Shown here: positions 1,234-10,868 of the stretch, piece by piece | Layout of the letters: the number at the start of each line of letters is the position of its first letter | Position numbering within the stretch: position 1 is the first letter of the stretch | Source of the DNA: a virus | Virus record (IMG/VR): IMGVR_UViG_3300028925_010462 | Coordinates: 1-34,465 of that record | Length of the DNA stretch: 34,465 nt | Strand: one strand, 5' to 3' | Translations under genes and position numbers: made by a program | The notes under the pieces: model-generated | Databases searched by the model: none | Seen by the model: the letters and a program-made list of their open reading frames with translations, nothing else | Told to the model about the DNA's origin: nothing

Positions 1234-1307
1234 TCCGCCCCCCATGCTGCGACGGCGAGGGTTGAGATCAGCGCAATCCAGCCACCATATTCGAGTAATC
1301 GTTTCAT
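1224..1307 (-). CDS. 27-residue single-span membrane peptide, hypothetical
   Basis: The ATG at 1307-1305 overlaps the stop of the cytosine methylase gene (ATGA) and is preceded by GAGG five bases upstream. The product begins MKRLLEYGG, has one hydrophobic helix (WIALISTLAVAAWGA) and ends EWY. The stop overlaps the preferred start of the rusA-like gene. Four-base overlaps on both sides of such a short frame suggest translational coupling and support a real gene. It is too short to assign to a family. Confidence 0.5.
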   Translation of the reverse strand: MKRLLEYGGWIALISTLAVAAWGAEWY

Positions 1308-2224
1308 GCTCGCCTCGTCAGTTCACGAGTCATTGCGGTTAAAGACAGTGCCGCTTGCTGTGGAACTACTGAATTTCCGAGGATTCGCAACTTGTCAGTT
1401 CGAGCCAGCCCTCGGGCAAGCCCATAAGCCACTCCACGAATTTCGGATTGAGTCTGCGTCGCTGGCGCAAGGTCGGGTCTTCGTTCGAGAACAGTGGCCC
1501 ATCCTGCGCTATCTCTTGGACCTGGTGCGACAACATATACTGCATCTTGCCGTTCCGTGTACCAGCTGCGTCTTCGTTGGACGTTGGCGTCCACCACATC
1601 GCTTGTAACGACAAGGGAGTCCCTCCTTGCTCGTATTGCTTGCGCCTGTTCCGAACGTCGTCGCCGGTCGGGGTTGTCCAATTCTCCGCTGCTTCCTCCA
1701 GATTCTTCGCCGTCACGGTAGGCAAGGATGAAAGTTCGTCGTCGATGATGCCGATGACCTGCATCAGCCGCTTCGGTGATGATTTCCGTAACTCGATAGC
1801 CCAGTGCTTGAAGCCCGGATCGGACCTCCCACCAGTAGTAGTGAATAAGTCCAGTTGATGCGACATTCTCGAAGAAGCAAGCTGCTGGCTGAACTTCTCG
1901 TACCACTCGGAGAGTGTTAGGCCATCCGTTTCGGGAATCTTTGGCTCCTCGTTTGCTTCCTGCCGTGGAGAACGGTTGGCATGGTGGGCCTCCAATGACC
2001 CAATCCACTTTGCCACGCCACGGGTTGCCGTCGAAGGTGTTGGCATCATCCCAAATAGGTGCATCATCCAAGTCGCCTGTTTTGAAACGCGCAGTAAGTA
2101 CGCCGATCGAGGTGATTTCTCTCTCCACGTAGCAGACTGTTCGAGCTCCAGGAATTGCCAATCGGAAACCGACGTCAAGACCACCGGCTCCTGAGTAGAG
2201 ACTGAGGACGGTAGGTGTATCCAT
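1304..2224 (-). CDS. dcm: DNA (cytosine-5-)-methyltransferase
   Basis: The enzyme transfers a methyl group from S-adenosylmethionine to C5 of cytosine in DNA; in phages this usually protects against host restriction. Motifs are in the family order: motif I LSLYSGAGGLDVGF (residues 7-20), motif IV GGPPCQPFSTAG with catalytic Cys82, motif VI ENV (119-121), motif VIII HHRRRTFILA (159-168) and motif X LGNSVVPQQA near the C terminus. At 306 residues it is a compact enzyme with a short target-recognition region. The start is well supported: AGGAGG lies nine bases before ATG 2224. From about 1366 to 1925 a second reading frame of the same strand also looks coding (see separate entry), so this DNA may encode two proteins. 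Confidence 0.9.
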   Translation of the reverse strand: MDTPTVLSLYSGAGGLDVGFRLAIPGARTVCYVEREITSIGVLTARFKTGDLDDAPIWDDANTFDGNPWRGKVDWVIGGPPCQPFSTAGSKRGAKDSRNGWPNTLRVVREVQPAACFFENVASTGLIHYYWWEVRSGLQALGYRVTEIITEAADAGHRHHRRRTFILAYRDGEESGGSSGELDNPDRRRRSEQAQAIRARRDSLVVTSDVVDANVQRRRSWYTERQDAVYVVAPGPRDSAGWATVLERRPDLAPATQTQSEIRGVAYGLARGLARTDKLRILGNSVVPQQAALSLTAMTRELTRRA

Positions 2225-2262
2225 GTCAATTCACCTCCTCCGGTTCTCCGAGAAGATCCCAT
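1366..2262 (-). CDS. Overlapping frame inside the methylase gene: phage WxTPT / FVEWLMG protein
   Basis: This is a 298-codon open frame on the same strand as the cytosine methylase but in another phase. Its first ~110 residues look like a shadow of the methylase motifs. From about residue 114 (near 1923) it reads like a real phage protein: LTLSEWYEKF, two WTTPT/WWTPT motifs (195-199, 223-227), QGGTPLSLQAM, and LNPKFVEWLMGLPEGW at residues 271-286 (1405-1452). From memory, this last string with repeated W-TPT motifs is a common phage family found in or beside cytosine methylases; I could not run a search. The true start is unknown. Alternatives are an ancestral in-frame C-terminal domain that shifted frame, or programmed frameshifting from the methylase. 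Confidence 0.5.
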   Translation of the reverse strand: MGSSRRTGGGELTWIHLPSSVSTQEPVVLTSVSDWQFLELEQSATWREKSPRSAYLLRVSKQATWMMHLFGMMPTPSTATRGVAKWIGSLEAHHANRSPRQEANEEPKIPETDGLTLSEWYEKFSQQLASSRMSHQLDLFTTTGGRSDPGFKHWAIELRKSSPKRLMQVIGIIDDELSSLPTVTAKNLEEAAENWTTPTGDDVRNRRKQYEQGGTPLSLQAMWWTPTSNEDAAGTRNGKMQYMLSHQVQEIAQDGPLFSNEDPTLRQRRRLNPKFVEWLMGLPEGWLELTSCESSEIQ

Positions 2263-2351
2263 GCAAACTGAATCAGCCAGTGTTGAAGAATTTCCTCTCG
2301 CCGATTGAACGGGTACTTGCTGAGTTCTGCGTAGGTGATTTCGATTGTCAT
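2226..2351 (-). CDS. 41-residue hypothetical protein upstream of the methylase
   Basis: ATG at 2351 has GGAGG six bases upstream. The product (MTIEITYAELSKYPFNRREE...) is a short, mildly acidic, probably alpha-helical protein ending LLGEPEEVN. Its stop is one base before the methylase ATG, and its last codons (GAG GAG GTG) form the methylase Shine-Dalgarno, so the two are probably translationally coupled. No family recognised. Confidence 0.6.
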   Translation of the reverse strand: MTIEITYAELSKYPFNRREEILQHWLIQFAWDLLGEPEEVN

Positions 2352-2407
2352 TCCAAGCCTCCAGGTTCTTTGGATTGATTCCAAGCTGTTGAGGACAGTT
2401 TACAAAT

Positions 2408-3532
2408 CTACTCTTTGGCAGAGACGATCAGAGTTTGGAATTTGCTTTTGACGTCCGCTGCGGTTTTGCCGCCCATCGATGCGTTCCGAATCCAAGCGTC
2501 GGCAGCTTCCTCGGGTCGCATGGCGGCTAGTGGTGTGTCAGTGGCTACCCGCTGGACAACCACCCGTTCCTTTGTGACCTCGATCGACTCGACCCGATCG
2601 CAGAGTTCGTTCATGCGCTTTCGGACGTCAGCCATTGCCTCAACGGTCGGTTCGCACCCTTCCGCCTCGACATGGTGCTTCCATCGGCCTACGTCGTAGT
2701 GGCTAGTGGTCTCGTCAAGAGGGTCGGCGTATGTGGCGTCGAGCAGTTTCAACGATGTCTTGTAGGGAATCGTTTGGGAATCCCACTCATCGGTGTCGAG
2801 AACGACGAATGATTTCTGCTGCGGAGCATCGCCCCAATCGGTCGGCTGGCTGCTGCCCACGTATCCCTCCATTCGAGGGTCGTGAACGTGGCCGAGCGCA
2901 ACGAAGTCGAATGCGTTGGCGAGGGTGTTGTAGTCGAACACGACGTCCTTGCCAGCCCATTGCAATCCGGGCGACGGCGCAAGATCATTCTCGCCTTTGC
3001 CATACGACACCATTGCATGACCGATGAGGACGTTTTTTCGGTCGGCGACGATCATCGAATTGAGTTCATCGAGCGCAACGGCTTGAGTAAGTTCGAGTTG
3101 GGACTTGAGTGTTCCATCACTAACATCGTAAGCCTGTGGCGTAACCCACGGTAGAAGCACGATGTTCACGTCCTCCATCGTGTACGAGAGGATTCTCTTG
3201 CGAGCCCATACCGCTTCGGCGGGAGAGGTAACTCTTGTAAGATTCCACGATGCGGATACGGATTCGGTCGACACTCCATCGTCGTGATTTCCGTCCGCAC
3301 CTAGAACGACGATTCCGTTACTGACTAGCCGGTGAATCTGATGATCGACGAACCTGCTCGTCCATGTGGTCGGTCGACGGTGGTGAAAGATGTCACCTGC
3401 GAATGCGACTGCATCGAGCTTGTTGTCGAGAGCGTACTCGACGAGTTCTATGAATGGCTCTGCCCACTTCTCATCACTCACACCGAACTTGTTTGCGCCG
3501 ATGTGTAGGTCGGCTGCTATTAGGATTTTCAT
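2408..3532 (-). CDS. sbcD: SbcD/Mre11-like exonuclease subunit
   Basis: This is a calcineurin-like metallophosphoesterase that forms the nuclease half of the SbcCD (Mre11-Rad50, T4 gp46/gp47) complex, which trims DNA ends and opens hairpins. Metal-site motifs are complete: ADLHIG (D8, H10), AGDIFHHR (D47), GADGNHDD (N82, H83, D84), IGHAMVS (H172) and LGHVHDP (H215, H217). The 374-residue length is normal. The C-terminal part (about 280-374) should be the capping and partner-binding region. The ATG overlaps the stop of the upstream sbcC gene (TAATG), as expected for equimolar subunits. The T4 pair acts in recombination-dependent replication and host DNA breakdown; the same role is inferred here. 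Confidence 0.93.
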   Translation of the reverse strand: MKILIAADLHIGANKFGVSDEKWAEPFIELVEYALDNKLDAVAFAGDIFHHRRPTTWTSRFVDHQIHRLVSNGIVVLGADGNHDDGVSTESVSASWNLTRVTSPAEAVWARKRILSYTMEDVNIVLLPWVTPQAYDVSDGTLKSQLELTQAVALDELNSMIVADRKNVLIGHAMVSYGKGENDLAPSPGLQWAGKDVVFDYNTLANAFDFVALGHVHDPRMEGYVGSSQPTDWGDAPQQKSFVVLDTDEWDSQTIPYKTSLKLLDATYADPLDETTSHYDVGRWKHHVEAEGCEPTVEAMADVRKRMNELCDRVESIEVTKERVVVQRVATDTPLAAMRPEEAADAWIRNASMGGKTAADVKSKFQTLIVSAKE

Positions 3533-5715
3533 TATTGTCGTACCTCCGAAGTTGCGTTGCCGACCGGGCGAATCTCTGTCCGCTGATCGACCATGTCCTG
3601 CACCGATTCGATATGAGTGATTGCGACGACATCGATGCCTGTGTCCGCAACCTTGTTGAGCATTTCGAGGAACTGGACCTGGTAGTCACCTGAGAGCCAT
3701 GCGTCGGCCTCGTCGAGATACAACGTCTCGTAGTGAACACCGGCTGCTGCACCACCTACTTCTGCCATTCCGAGACGGACTGCCAGGGCGACAGCAACGG
3801 ACTGAGCCCCTGATAGTTCAGACCACGGCTCGATGTCGCCTGATGGCGTCACCACACCCTCGTCGAACGTCTCACGGTCGGTCTCGGTTTGCGTCGTGAA
3901 GTAAATCTCGAATCCTGGTGCGATGACGTTGAGCCATCGGTTCGCTGCTGATTCGAGCGCACCGAGCGATTGGTCGATGATTAGCTGGCGGACGCCGTTG
4001 GTTCCGGTCATGGACACAACATGCTCCCACGAGGTCAGTTCGCCTCGTAATTCGCCTAACTTCTCACGTTTTTCTTTGAGGTCGGCGCTGGCCTTCTCGG
4101 ACGTGGCTAATTGTTGCTCGGAGATTGTGAGCTCGGTGTTTGCGGAAGACTGCGCCTCGCGCGCGTCAATCACAGCACTTAGTTGAGCAATGCAGGATTG
4201 TCGCAATTCTTCGATCTTCTCCGGGTGGGGGTTCTCGATGTTTTTCAGTGACTTGCGAATCCGTCCAGCATCGGCGGACGCCTTGACTCTCTGTTCCAGC
4301 CACGAGGTCTTCGCTTTTTCGGCGTCCCCGATTCGCACGAGAGCATTCGCAGACTTGGAGCGGTCTGCCATGATGTCGGCATCTTGCCCGAGTTCCCTCG
4401 GTACATCGGTGAGTACGTTCAGCGGCGGCATTTCTGGAGAATTGGGCGGCTTTGTGAGCATCAAATCTTCGTACTCAGTTTTCAATGACGCCAAGTCCAT
4501 TTTCCAATATGGATACATATCTATAAGCGCGAGCAGTTCACTAGCGTGTTCAGTCGTTAGCGGCTGTTTGCACTCGGGGCAGAATTTTGACGCTACCGAT
4601 TCGCTGGCTGCTTTGACCTTGTTCAGCTTGGCAACGGTATCGACTATTGCGGTTGATCGAGAGTCCCGCCTTGACTGCCAATACTGTCGTTCGGTTCGCC
4701 ATCTATCCATCGCCGTTTCGTATACGGCGAGCGCCTCGGTGTTAGCGAGCGTAGACGATTCGTTCGTTGCAATAACAGCGTTGATCTCGGCTTGACGCTC
4801 GGCGATTTTCACCTGATGCGCCTCGTAAAGTTCTTCGATGTCCTCTCGTTTGCTGGCAGCGATATTGAGGTCGGCGATCAGGTCGTCGAGGTCGGCTAGT
4901 GAGCGCGTCGCCTGATCGTGTTCATCTTCTCGGTCGGAGAGTTCGTTGATCTTGCTGATGATGAGGTCGGACGTTTCGATTGCGAGACTGTGAGCAGTTT
5001 GTTTGCTTGCGAGGTTACGCTCGGCAATAGCGAGATTCGTTGCTGCCGAATCGATCATGCCTTTTACGACATCGATAGTGTTGCGGTCGGTCACGAGGTT
5101 CGATGCAATTTCTTCAAACACCGGAATTGCTCCCGAGACCTCGGCAATGTCGAGTCCGAGCCCCTTCACAATTTCCTTTGCTGCGATTTCCCACGCGTCC
5201 CAGTCACCAGCGGCAGAAAGTATTTCGCGCAGGATTCCTTTACGGGTGTAGGCGTCAGCTTCGAGGAATTGGCCGGCTCCTTCACGTTGCCCGACGTAAG
5301 CGGTCATGTTCCAGACCTCGAAAGTTCCGACCAGGTCGTTGATCTTGGCTTGGGTTTCCTTGTTGATCGCCTGAGTAAGATCGTGCGATTTGCCATCTGT
5401 AAATTGTGTAAGGCTCAGTCGAGTCGTGCCGCCCTTGCCGTTCGGTGCAAGTAGGAATCGGCGACTAATCGAATAGCGTTCCTTGCCGACTTGAATCAGG
5501 ACTGTCGCTGTCATGTCTCTCTCGCCGTGGCGAACTAGATAGTCCTGGCTCCGACCCGGCGTCTTTCCCCAAATCGACCAGCCTGCGGATATTCCTTGCA
5601 AGGTGGTCTTCCCTGACCCGTTCGGACCCGTTATCAGGGACAGTCCGGACGGGACTTTGTAGTGCGCCTTTTGGAACGTCCGCATGTTTGCGAGTTCCAC
5701 CTCTAATATCTTCAT
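3532..5715 (-). CDS. sbcC: SbcC/Rad50-like ATPase subunit
   Basis: This is an SMC-family ATPase that clamps DNA ends for the SbcD nuclease. The N-terminal Walker A is GPNGSGKTT (residues 30-38). Two long coiled-coil arms flank a zinc-hook FCPECKQPL (CxxC, near residue 375). The C-terminal head has the signature motif ELSGAQSVAVALAVRL (near 631), with Gln where Rad50 often has Glu, and Walker B with D-loop YLDEADAWLSGD (near 664). At 727 residues it is short for bacterial SbcC (about 1000) but in the range of phage gp46-like proteins. The start is fixed by CGGAGCC seven bases upstream of ATG 5715. A 156-base structured leader precedes it. Confidence 0.95.
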   Translation of the reverse strand: MKILEVELANMRTFQKAHYKVPSGLSLITGPNGSGKTTLQGISAGWSIWGKTPGRSQDYLVRHGERDMTATVLIQVGKERYSISRRFLLAPNGKGGTTRLSLTQFTDGKSHDLTQAINKETQAKINDLVGTFEVWNMTAYVGQREGAGQFLEADAYTRKGILREILSAAGDWDAWEIAAKEIVKGLGLDIAEVSGAIPVFEEIASNLVTDRNTIDVVKGMIDSAATNLAIAERNLASKQTAHSLAIETSDLIISKINELSDREDEHDQATRSLADLDDLIADLNIAASKREDIEELYEAHQVKIAERQAEINAVIATNESSTLANTEALAVYETAMDRWRTERQYWQSRRDSRSTAIVDTVAKLNKVKAASESVASKFCPECKQPLTTEHASELLALIDMYPYWKMDLASLKTEYEDLMLTKPPNSPEMPPLNVLTDVPRELGQDADIMADRSKSANALVRIGDAEKAKTSWLEQRVKASADAGRIRKSLKNIENPHPEKIEELRQSCIAQLSAVIDAREAQSSANTELTISEQQLATSEKASADLKEKREKLGELRGELTSWEHVVSMTGTNGVRQLIIDQSLGALESAANRWLNVIAPGFEIYFTTQTETDRETFDEGVVTPSGDIEPWSELSGAQSVAVALAVRLGMAEVGGAAAGVHYETLYLDEADAWLSGDYQVQFLEMLNKVADTGIDVVAITHIESVQDMVDQRTEIRPVGNATSEVRQ

Positions 5716-5871: not shown

Positions 5872-6954
5872 CTACCACGGAAGTTCTTCAACGTCCTCTT
5901 TCACACCGTCAGTCTCGACAATGGTAGTAATCGGAACAGGGACGCACATCAGCTTGACTGCATCGATGATTTCATCGAGATCGTACTCGGCTGACCGAGT
6001 CATTCTTGCCACGCCTTGCCTACCGTTCGCACCCTCGAAGTTGAACTTTTCAATGTCCAATTCACCGAGACCTTTGATCGCCGAGACGACTTCGATTACA
6101 AAGCCTTCCGGGTCTTCTTCCGGGTTTACTTCCGGGTTTGCGGTTGACTCTGGCTCAACAATGGCTTTCATCGGGGTGTCGTCTACAACTCCACCCGACT
6201 CGGCGTCGAACGTGCCGATGTAAACGCCTAGTGGTGCTGCTTGTCGCATTACTCGTACCAGCGCACGTTTCTGTGCGATCTCACCAGCGTAGCCACCAGT
6301 TTTGGCAAGTGGGTTCTGTTCGCCAGCACCGCCAGCTTTCCCGAAATCGGTTGCGATAGGGAATCTCTGACCGCCAGCGACTTTGTAGTAAGTCGCAATG
6401 AACGCATCTTGGTCGTCTTTGACTTTGTACGCCTTGCGTTCATCGGCAGTCATTGGGCGAGCATCTGAACCACCGTCCATTGCGGCGAGTGAATTCTTCG
6501 TCCAGAAAATCCAACCGTTGAAGTTCATGTAGAGGCCACCATGAACGATGTTGAAGTGTTGCGGAATGAATCCCACGGTGCGTAGCTGCGCTGCTAGGCG
6601 TAGGTCGGCATCGCTGATGGCGTCGCCGAATCCGTCCACGAGATCGGCGAATTGCCTCCCCGTCTCACGCAGTTCGATTGTTGTTGGCTCTCGCAGGGCG
6701 AGGGCTGTGTTTGTTGTCACTTTGACTTCTCCAAACTTGTCTCTGAGTCGCGACTTGATAGCCGCGTTCTGAGTATTGTCTCCGGTTAGATACTTTTCAG
6801 TCTCCGAGGAAACGCGCACGAGAGAGACCGGAGATCCCTCGCACTCGTTACACCACGACAGTCCGTCCTTCATTCCTAGTAGCCCGTCAGGGTGTTCGGA
6901 ACAGGCGTTTTTCCTGATGTTTCGGAGCTCGGCACGTTTTTCTCGGAGTCCCAT
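5872..6954 (-). CDS. Probable phage recombination protein (RecT/Erf-like single-strand annealing)
   Basis: This is a 360-residue protein just upstream of sbcCD. The central block resembles RecT/Bet/Erf-type annealing proteins as I know them: LRLAAQLRTVGFIPQHFNI...YMNFNGWIFWTKNS (about 116-155), then GGYAGEIAQKRALVRVMRQAAPLG, analogous to the family 'emAeKRA..RALR.A' helix. The N terminus carries a possible zinc site (CSEH at residues 18-21 and CNEC at 35-38). The C-terminal third is acidic (PEVNPEEDPEG), followed by a small folded segment. The ATG immediately follows the upstream stop with no clear Shine-Dalgarno, suggesting coupling. Placement next to an end-processing nuclease fits an exonuclease plus annealer module. 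The family call is from pattern only. Confidence 0.5.
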   Translation of the reverse strand: MGLREKRAELRNIRKNACSEHPDGLLGMKDGLSWCNECEGSPVSLVRVSSETEKYLTGDNTQNAAIKSRLRDKFGEVKVTTNTALALREPTTIELRETGRQFADLVDGFGDAISDADLRLAAQLRTVGFIPQHFNIVHGGLYMNFNGWIFWTKNSLAAMDGGSDARPMTADERKAYKVKDDQDAFIATYYKVAGGQRFPIATDFGKAGGAGEQNPLAKTGGYAGEIAQKRALVRVMRQAAPLGVYIGTFDAESGGVVDDTPMKAIVEPESTANPEVNPEEDPEGFVIEVVSAIKGLGELDIEKFNFEGANGRQGVARMTRSAEYDLDEIIDAVKLMCVPVPITTIVETDGVKEDVEELPW

Positions 6955-7158
6955 TTAGCTGCCAGCGATCTTGCGCCCTAGTTTAGTAAGACCTTCTTCG
7001 CCGCGTCGCACCATGTTTAGCATTTCCTCTACGATGTCGAGGGTTCCTTCGGTGTTTTGGTACACCTTCGCTGCGACGGCGTACTCGCCCTTCGCATTTT
7101 GCTTCGCCTCGATTGAGGACTGGCTCACTCCCTGAGTGACCGTGTTGTGAGTAACCAT
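6955..7158 (-). CDS. 67-residue hypothetical protein
   Basis: I chose ATG 7158 because CGGAGCC lies five bases upstream and a non-coding inverted-repeat region lies just before it; the open frame extends farther but reads through that repeat. The product (MVTHNTVTQGVSQSSIEAKQ...) has a mixed-charge, probably helical C-terminal half (EEMLNMVRRGEEGLTKLGRK). Its stop abuts the start of the annealing-protein gene (TAAATG), so they should be co-translated. No family recognised. Confidence 0.65.
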   Translation of the reverse strand: MVTHNTVTQGVSQSSIEAKQNAKGEYAVAAKVYQNTEGTLDIVEEMLNMVRRGEEGLTKLGRKIAGS

Positions 7159-7861: not shown

Positions 7862-8311
7862 TTACATCCATTCCAGCATTGCGTCGTCGATGGCGACGTT
7901 GATTTTGTAGTAACCGTTCATGTCGCAGCCGCCATTGCGGCATTTGAACGTGAGGACGTCCGTGTTAAGACCGTCGTGATCGAGTAGGTCGGGCTGTGTC
8001 CAGTTGGTGACGTGTTCGTGTTCGGTGTCGAATGATTCCGACCACGCAAGCATCGCTTCCTTACTGCCCCATGCAACAGGTGGAAACTCACCATGCAGCC
8101 ACCAGCACCACTCTTGTATCAGTGGATAGTTCGTTCCGTCAGCGCGGGCGAATACGGCGATAAGGTTGTTGGAGAGGAGTGCTTGGAGAAAATCTCCGGG
8201 TAGCTGCCCTGTCTCCAAATAGCGTTTCAATCCAGCGGTCATTTCGTGGTTTGGAATTTGCCCCCATTGAATGTGGTCAAATTTCTTAGGACCTGGCGCG
8301 TCATTCGTCAT
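7862..8311 (-). CDS. Conserved phage hypothetical protein (PGDFLQALLxN...AWGS type)
   Basis: This is a 149-residue protein. The pattern ...LKRYLETGQLPGDFLQALLSNNL, then AFARAD, then W..HGEFPPVAWGS matches my memory of a very common phage protein of unknown function, usually one small alpha-helical domain. Here that domain occupies about residues 15-90, followed by an extension with CRNGGCDMNG that may bind metal. The start ATG 8311 has GGAGCC nine bases upstream (GGAG core). A folded spacer lies directly before it (8338-8391). Function unknown. Confidence 0.7.
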   Translation of the reverse strand: MTNDAPGPKKFDHIQWGQIPNHEMTAGLKRYLETGQLPGDFLQALLSNNLIAVFARADGTNYPLIQEWCWWLHGEFPPVAWGSKEAMLAWSESFDTEHEHVTNWTQPDLLDHDGLNTDVLTFKCRNGGCDMNGYYKINVAIDDAMLEWM

Positions 8312-10237: not shown

Positions 10238-10247
10238 TCTCTTGTCT

Positions 10248-10302
10248 CCGTTTCGTCGCTATCTGGCGACTCATCAGCAATGGCGAAGTAGCCACTGGAC
10301 GG
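10248..10302 (-). ncRNA. Hammerhead ribozyme A (type III)
   Basis: Minus-strand order: stem III 5' strand CCGU (10302-10299), cleavage triplet GUC (10300-10298), stem I CAGUGGC/GCCAUUG (10297-10291 / 10284-10278) with loop UACUUC, core CUGAUGA (10277-10271), stem II GUCGC/GCGAC (10270-10266 / 10259-10255) with loop CAGAUA, core GAAA (10254-10251), stem III 3' strand ACGG (10251-10248). All invariant core bases and the A-U pair next to the cleavage site are present. Predicted cleavage lies between 10298 and 10297. It fills the spacer between two genes. Stem III overlaps the GG of the Shine-Dalgarno of the 10237 gene. Confidence 0.92.
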
Positions 10303-10313
10303 CTCTCGCCGTC
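10298..10313 (-). promoter_or_regulatory. Hairpin ending exactly at ribozyme A cleavage site
   Basis: GACGGC (10313-10308), loop GAGA (a GNRA tetraloop) and GCCGUC (10303-10298). It starts two bases after the stop of the upstream gene (10316) and its last base is the nucleotide 5' of the scissile bond. It competes with stem III before cleavage and would cap the 3' end of the upstream mRNA after cleavage. Confidence 0.75.
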
Positions 10314-10792: not shown

Positions 10793-10803
10793 TGTCTGTG
10801 GCT

Positions 10804-10856
10804 CCGTTTCGGTCGTTACTGCGACCTCATCAGCGATGCGAAGAAGCATCGGACGG
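10804..10856 (-). ncRNA. Hammerhead ribozyme B (type III)
   Basis: Minus-strand order: stem III 5' strand CCGU (10856-10853), triplet GUC (10854-10852), stem I CGAUGC/GCAUCG (10851-10846 / 10839-10834) with loop UUCUUC, core CUGAUGA (10833-10827), stem II GGUCG/CGACC (10826-10822 / 10815-10811) with loop CAGUAA, core GAAA (10810-10807), stem III 3' strand ACGG (10807-10804). Predicted cleavage lies between 10852 and 10851. Compared with copy A, stems I and II have changed sequence yet still pair, while the two loops are nearly unchanged, which suits loop-loop tertiary contact. Stem III runs into the Shine-Dalgarno CGGAGCC of the 10792 gene. Confidence 0.93.
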
Positions 10857-10868
10857 GCGTTGCCCGTC
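10852..10868 (-). promoter_or_regulatory. Hairpin ending exactly at ribozyme B cleavage site
   Basis: GACGGGC (10868-10862), loop AAC and GCCCGUC (10858-10852). It overlaps the stop codon of the upstream gene (10867-10869) and ends at the nucleotide 5' of the predicted scissile bond, the same design as at ribozyme A but with a different, still perfectly paired stem. Confidence 0.75.

Follow-up and report, generated by a model that had tools for sequence, protein, structure and literature searches.

Positions 10804-10856 of the window (the whole 34,465-nucleotide stretch of viral DNA analyzed here) encode what is, judged from its sequence and predicted pairing, a type III hammerhead ribozyme, which we call copy B. 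The RNA should cut the phage mRNA just before the start signal of a gene. Copy B lies in the intergenic spacer between two genes of a leftward block of this uncultured phage and, together with a second hammerhead on the same strand (copy A), flanks a gene for a 158-aa protein, an arrangement that fits the clustered phage hammerheads described by Perreault and colleagues in 2011 (PMC3088659). Phage hammerheads, their prophage clusters and a proposed role in processing long RNAs were already known from that year. What we add is the anatomy of the window copies and a hairpin–ribozyme–start-codon module, found in the window phage and in dozens of others, which suggests what phage hammerheads are for. 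Their function in bacteria and phages was called unproven or unknown in papers of 2011 (main text of PMC3088659), 2017 and 2023.

On the minus strand (10856-10804), copy B reads CCGU-C^CGAUGC-UUCUUC-GCAUCG-CUGAUGA-GGUCG-CAGUAA-CGACC-GAA-ACGG. CCGU (10856-10853) and ACGG (10807-10804) are the two strands of stem III, and the core consists of CUGAUGA at 10833-10827, GAA at 10810-10808 and C17 at 10852. What a hammerhead core requires, namely CUGANGA...GAA, an A15.1-U16.1 pair and an H17 that is not G, is present here as CUGAUGA, GAA, a U-A pair and C17, together with a GUC cleavage triplet and three stems. Stems I and II are closed by loops and stem III is open, which is the type III topology. 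The preliminary description had proposed a complete type III hammerhead at this place, and both its coordinates and its pairings proved exact; the layout it gave for copy A was likewise recovered. All three helices are paired in both copies, which differ in stems I and II and stay paired as had been claimed, with a single G-U pair in stem I of copy A. Both RNAs would be expected to cleave themselves site-specifically, 3' of H17 (Table 1).

Table 1. Positions of the hammerheads, their parts and neighboring features (window coordinates unless a locus is given)
Feature	Position	Strand	Details
Type III hammerhead ribozyme, copy B	10804..10856	(-)	R1 49.4 bits, E 7.1e-12, plus anatomy
Copy B, expected cut	between 10852 (C17) and 10851	(-)	
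Copy B, stem I CGAUGC-UUCUUC-GCAUCG	10834..10851	(-)	would open the 3' cleavage product
Copy B, stem II GGUCG-CAGUAA-CGACC	10811..10826	(-)	loop motif CAGUNA also in L015, L036, L040, L239
Copy B, perfect 7-bp hairpin GACGGGC-AAC-GCCCGUC	10852..10868	(-)	ends at C17
Copy B, Shine-Dalgarno GGAG	10802..10805	(-)	first two bases in stem III, 9 nt before AUG
Type III hammerhead ribozyme, copy A	10248..10302	(-)	R1 42.1 bits, E 8.1e-10; RF00008 28 bits, below cut-off
Copy A, expected cut	between 10298 (C17) and 10297	(-)	
Copy A, perfect 6-bp hairpin GACGGC-GAGA-GCCGUC	10298..10313	(-)	ends at C17
Copy A, Shine-Dalgarno GGAG	10246..10249	(-)	overlaps stem III, 8 nt before AUG
Gene upstream of copy B, 56 aa	10867..11037	(-)	
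Gene downstream of copy B, 158 aa	10316..10792	(-)	no PHROG or Pfam match
Gene downstream of copy A, 248 aa	9491..10237	(-)	no family match; N-terminal homologue in G031
Predicted hammerhead, Caulobacter phage S2B	L241:645-699 (MN857473)		at start codon of gene near genome end
Predicted hammerhead, Mycobacterium phage jiawei	L240:485-541 (OR464703)		at start codon of gene near genome end

Both copies were recognized by a profile of independent members. This covariance model, R1, was built from 54 hammerheads of other phages with the window sequences left out; on the window it matched copies B and A, with no third match up to an E-value of 10, and a relaxed-core scan of both strands likewise returned only these two. 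R1 also detects the hammerhead of phage PaP3, at 43.2 bits. Rfam at its gathering score found no family anywhere in the window: RF00008 did not report copy B and scored copy A at 28 bits, below its gathering score of 48.5; that value is the score cut-off of a curated set, not a biological definition. A glmS-like, ligand-dependent ribozyme was considered and rejected, since no Rfam family matched at gathering score and the fold is that of a hammerhead. Blastn searches of phages and plasmids with this region gave no matches.

To place the two copies among other phages, we searched IMG/VR with the core pattern CCGTC-N-CTGATGAG-N-CGAAACGG, which leaves stem I free and constrains stem II at its outermost pair only. 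At least 119 stretches matched, compared to two when one core base of the pattern was altered. Stems I and II both closed in register in 97 of the 103 distinct matches listed, and in 16 of 5150 shuffled loops. The weak Rfam result is what one would see if the window merely held chance hairpins resembling a hammerhead; the independent R1 E-values (7e-12 and 8e-10), the broken-core control and the stem closure relative to shuffled loops bring the probability of this explanation close to nil, and we dismiss it. A scan of genome contigs gave three matches, all of them poor hammerheads.

The preliminary description had further read the differences between copies A and B as compensatory, and had proposed a covariation check on related sequences. 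Two copies within one genome cannot prove compensation, so the proof has to come from covariation in other phages. Run on the 54 other-phage hammerheads of the R1 alignment, whose rows were picked by a scanner that demands pairing, the check showed standard pairs in 96.3% of pair cells and a covariation score of 0.742, compared to 0.177 after shuffling and 0.08-0.11 for slid partners. Double changes occurred at 12 of the 15 pairs. Covariation of stem III is under-sampled here because its sequence is largely set by the search pattern. The A/B differences are real, and stems I and II do compensate across phages, but the A/B pair alone would not have been sufficient to claim it. The 6-nt loop II motif of copy B, CAGUNA, recurs on different stems in the four loci named in Table 1, which fits the keeping of putative docking loops.

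Multiple copies are common: 14 of 20 whole phage records, chosen partly for their multi-copy look, carry two to four hammerheads. Three single phage records have four each, on one strand and within a few kilobases (G003:C1:55891-59397, G001:C1:27079-30268 and G007:C1:37949-40969), and these are good candidates for metatranscriptome tests of transcript processing.

The position of the hammerheads relative to genes is equally regular. In 100 of 114 distinct hammerheads, an ORF of 40 codons or more opens with an ATG no further than 80 nt downstream, the median distance from GAA being 26 nt; the opposite strand gives 11 of 114 and random positions 33%. Upstream, a region that was outside the selection criteria, a helix of at least 5 bp occurs within 44 nt of C17 in 75 of 77 representatives (less than 80% alike), and 65 of them have a hairpin with 6 or more base pairs whose end lies no further than 8 nt from C17, compared to 21% of random windows drawn from these loci (322 of 1540). 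The mean folding z-score of the upstream region is -2.45, compared to -0.36 in control windows. The stop codon of the upstream gene mostly lies 2-8 nt 5' of the hairpin, and these positions define a layout of stop codon, hairpin, cleavage site, stem I, core and start codon. Such a recurrent stop-to-start layout offers a specific, testable answer to the question of hammerhead function.

The sequences of the upstream hairpins are highly diverse, and a U-tract follows in only 1 of 77, which argues that they are not ordinary intrinsic terminators; that reading was rejected, the one terminator call at copy B being a weak one of 5 bp. No sigma-70-like promoter was found near copies A and B. Three loci lack a strong upstream hairpin (L241:625-650, L015 at about 7990-8022 and L036 at about 6935-6970) and have a similar stretch before the hammerhead instead, GCTCTTTGACATCGTGAA in S2B, which we take to resemble a boxA antitermination element.

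In the window the hairpins take up an unusual position. Both end exactly at C17, the hairpin of copy B sharing its 3' arm with stem III, so that hairpin and stem III exclude one another. The copy B hairpin begins inside the UGA stop codon of the upstream gene, and the UAG stop before copy A lies 2 nt 5' of its hairpin. Nearest-neighbor energies, in a model that ignores loop docking and core contacts, prefer the hairpin fold over stem III by 7.7 kcal/mol for copy B and 8.6 kcal/mol for copy A, and cleavage of either copy could therefore be slow or partial. When the 5' arm of its hairpin is removed, the predicted fold of copy B is the hammerhead.

Such an arrangement could gate the ribozyme by translation, stem III forming only when the ribosome that ends the upstream gene covers the 5' arm of the hairpin. 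The cut would then expose the next Shine-Dalgarno sequence, and cleavage would report translation of the upstream gene. This reasoning depends on the footprint of the ribosome. The two window hairpins, which end at C17 and have 5' arms starting at the stop codon or 2 nt past it, and the predicted preference of about 8 kcal/mol for the hairpin, speak for a gate of this kind, as do the hairpins of L110 and L046, which end 0-1 nt from C17 near a stop codon. However, in most phages hairpin and stem III lie side by side (offset 5-7 nt) with no competition between them, hence the gate is not general, and the packing of stop codon, hairpin and ribozyme may just mirror short spacers. We consider translation gating rather unlikely.

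The start signal also touches the ribozyme. In both window copies the 3' strand of stem III continues into the Shine-Dalgarno sequence (ACGGAG). Since the leader ACGGAGCCA also stands 5' of several genes of the same phage that have no hammerhead, the ribozyme appears to borrow the standard leader of the phage as a strand of stem III. The leader CGGAGCCA stands 5' of the start codon in other leftward genes, with minus-strand starts at 5715, 7158, 8311, 12005, 12219, 12930 and 13499, and several of these genes have strong hairpins upstream in the absence of a hammerhead. Overlap of the Shine-Dalgarno sequence with stem III is rare, being seen in 4 of 32 hammerheads with a recognizable Shine-Dalgarno sequence, two of which are copies A and B; L239 adds another case. 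In the predicted 3' product the Shine-Dalgarno sequence is only partly freed. The rarity of the overlap led us to reject Shine-Dalgarno release as the general function.

From what was observed of their sequence, structure and covariation, of their orientation and placement, and of the recurrent hairpin, we propose that these hammerheads probably cleave co-transcriptionally between cistrons, so that each new mRNA end carries a hairpin. RNA transcribed from the leftward block would cut itself once, just after C17, between two cistrons. At copy B this would leave a 2',3'-cyclic phosphate on the upstream mRNA, at the end of the GACGGGC-AAC-GCCCGUC hairpin, and the downstream mRNA would open with stem I, a 5'-terminal hairpin bearing a 5'-OH. 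Cuts at both B and A would release the 158-aa gene alone, as a 554-nt monocistronic RNA (10851-10298) with a hairpin at each end. Such terminal hairpins may protect the new ends: works cited in PMC3997798 are quoted there for the stabilization of E. coli mRNA by 5'-terminal stem-loops and for the slowing of bacterial mRNA decay by end hairpins. Cleavage would thereby decouple the stability and translation of adjacent genes, and in the window phage it would also take away the stem III strand to which part of the Shine-Dalgarno sequence is paired.

The same cut could have the opposite outcome. In B. subtilis the 5'-OH left by the glmS ribozyme leads to decay by RNase J1 (PMC3997798); cutting could thus destabilize the downstream mRNA in some hosts, and the effect would be host-dependent. 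Down-regulation as the purpose, in which a 5'-leader cut yields a 5'-OH mRNA that decays faster so that downstream expression falls, draws on this precedent and on the location of the ribozymes directly 5' of start codons. Yet no ligand domain is seen, a stable hairpin opens the 3' product, two to four tandem copies are common, and the benefit of a constitutive loss of one's own mRNA is not apparent, all of which makes down-regulation distinctly unlikely.

The processing model, which we favor, can be extended. Hairpin, hammerhead and start signal might together be a single module, shared by many phages, that replaces termination plus a new promoter by producing hairpin-ended monocistronic mRNAs. 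In the window phage the module would be a translation-coupled switch, with hairpin and stem III exclusive, the terminating ribosome permitting cleavage, and cleavage exposing the next Shine-Dalgarno sequence. This extension is speculative, and we give it a low chance of being right in full.

The genes next to the ribozymes were examined for relatives. None was found for either downstream protein in IMG/VR or INPHARED. A distant relative, G031, has a gene homologous to the one downstream of copy A (47% over 66 aa) with no hammerhead before it, and thus the ribozyme is not fixed to this gene. The terminase of the window phage has relatives, and among 22 such records one (G034) has a confident but divergent hammerhead, located before a short ORF, and another (G029) a doubtful one; since many of the records are fragments, absence from them is weak evidence. 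In the G034 copy (L233:1501-1551), CCGAUGA replaces CUGAUGA and stem II is weak, and it is perhaps a decaying or slow ribozyme. The patchy presence in terminase relatives and the absence in G031 suggest that the ribozyme is probably gained and lost readily. Elsewhere in the window, the minus strand of 1304-5715 carries SbcC-like (3532-5715) and SbcD-like (2408-3532) genes and, after them, one for a DNA methyltransferase (1304-2224).

Alternatively, the hammerheads could be selfish or neutral passengers, cassettes that move between phage spacers and persist because they do little harm, not because they serve the phage. The hammerhead-less homologue in G031, the divergent CCGAUGA core in the terminase lineage and the lack of family matches for the adjoining genes agree with this. 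Strong covariation with intact cores, fixed orientation and tight stop-to-start placement in compact genomes do not, and together they make mere passengers very unlikely.

Named phages provide further cases. R1 predicts type III hammerheads in both Caulobacter phage S2B and Mycobacterium phage jiawei (Table 1). In S2B the annotated start codon lies within stem III (GAAACGCAUG), in jiawei it follows directly 3' of stem III, and both have an AGGAGG-type Shine-Dalgarno sequence in the stem II region; in PaP3 the start codon is closely 3' of stem III. Overlap between hammerhead and translation start is thus present in separate phages and takes different forms. As S2B (host C. vibrioides CB15) and jiawei (host M. 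smegmatis) can be cultured, function could be tested directly. Blastn with short hammerhead queries returned no match in named phages. In Pelagibacter phage HTVC027P and phage DSL-LC04 no hammerhead was matched over the initial 50 kb, and the match in Bcep176 is doubtful.

Among known systems, the tandem prophage hammerheads reported in the main text of Perreault et al. 2011 (PMC3088659) are the closest. These cleave in vitro and in E. coli, and the authors proposed that clustered prophage hammerheads convert long phage transcripts into gene-length mRNAs; an association of hammerheads with Mu-like phages was published later. They share with the window the hammerhead core, several close copies flanking single phage genes, and unrelated neighbors. 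The window copies differ from those described in that main text by hairpins that exclude stem III and by having part of the Shine-Dalgarno sequence inside stem III; neither an upstream hairpin nor a Shine-Dalgarno overlap is mentioned there, and no description of either was found in the open-access literature searched. The PaP3 hammerhead (NC_004466), listed among active ribozymes with core variations (Fig. S6 of PMC3088659), is also type III, is found by the same model and ends immediately before the annotated orf71 start. Unlike the window copies it is a core variant with A at H17, has its AAAGGA Shine-Dalgarno sequence in stem II instead of stem III, and occurs as a single copy. Type III hammerheads of viroid-like satellite RNAs (RF00008, e.g. 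sTRSV) have the same topology, core and cleavage triplet as the window copies, but process multimeric circular RNA genomes. The glmS ribozyme, like the window elements, is a self-cleaving RNA in a 5' mRNA leader that leaves a 5'-OH on the coding RNA (PMC3997798), whereas its fold is unrelated, it needs a metabolite cofactor and it lowers expression.
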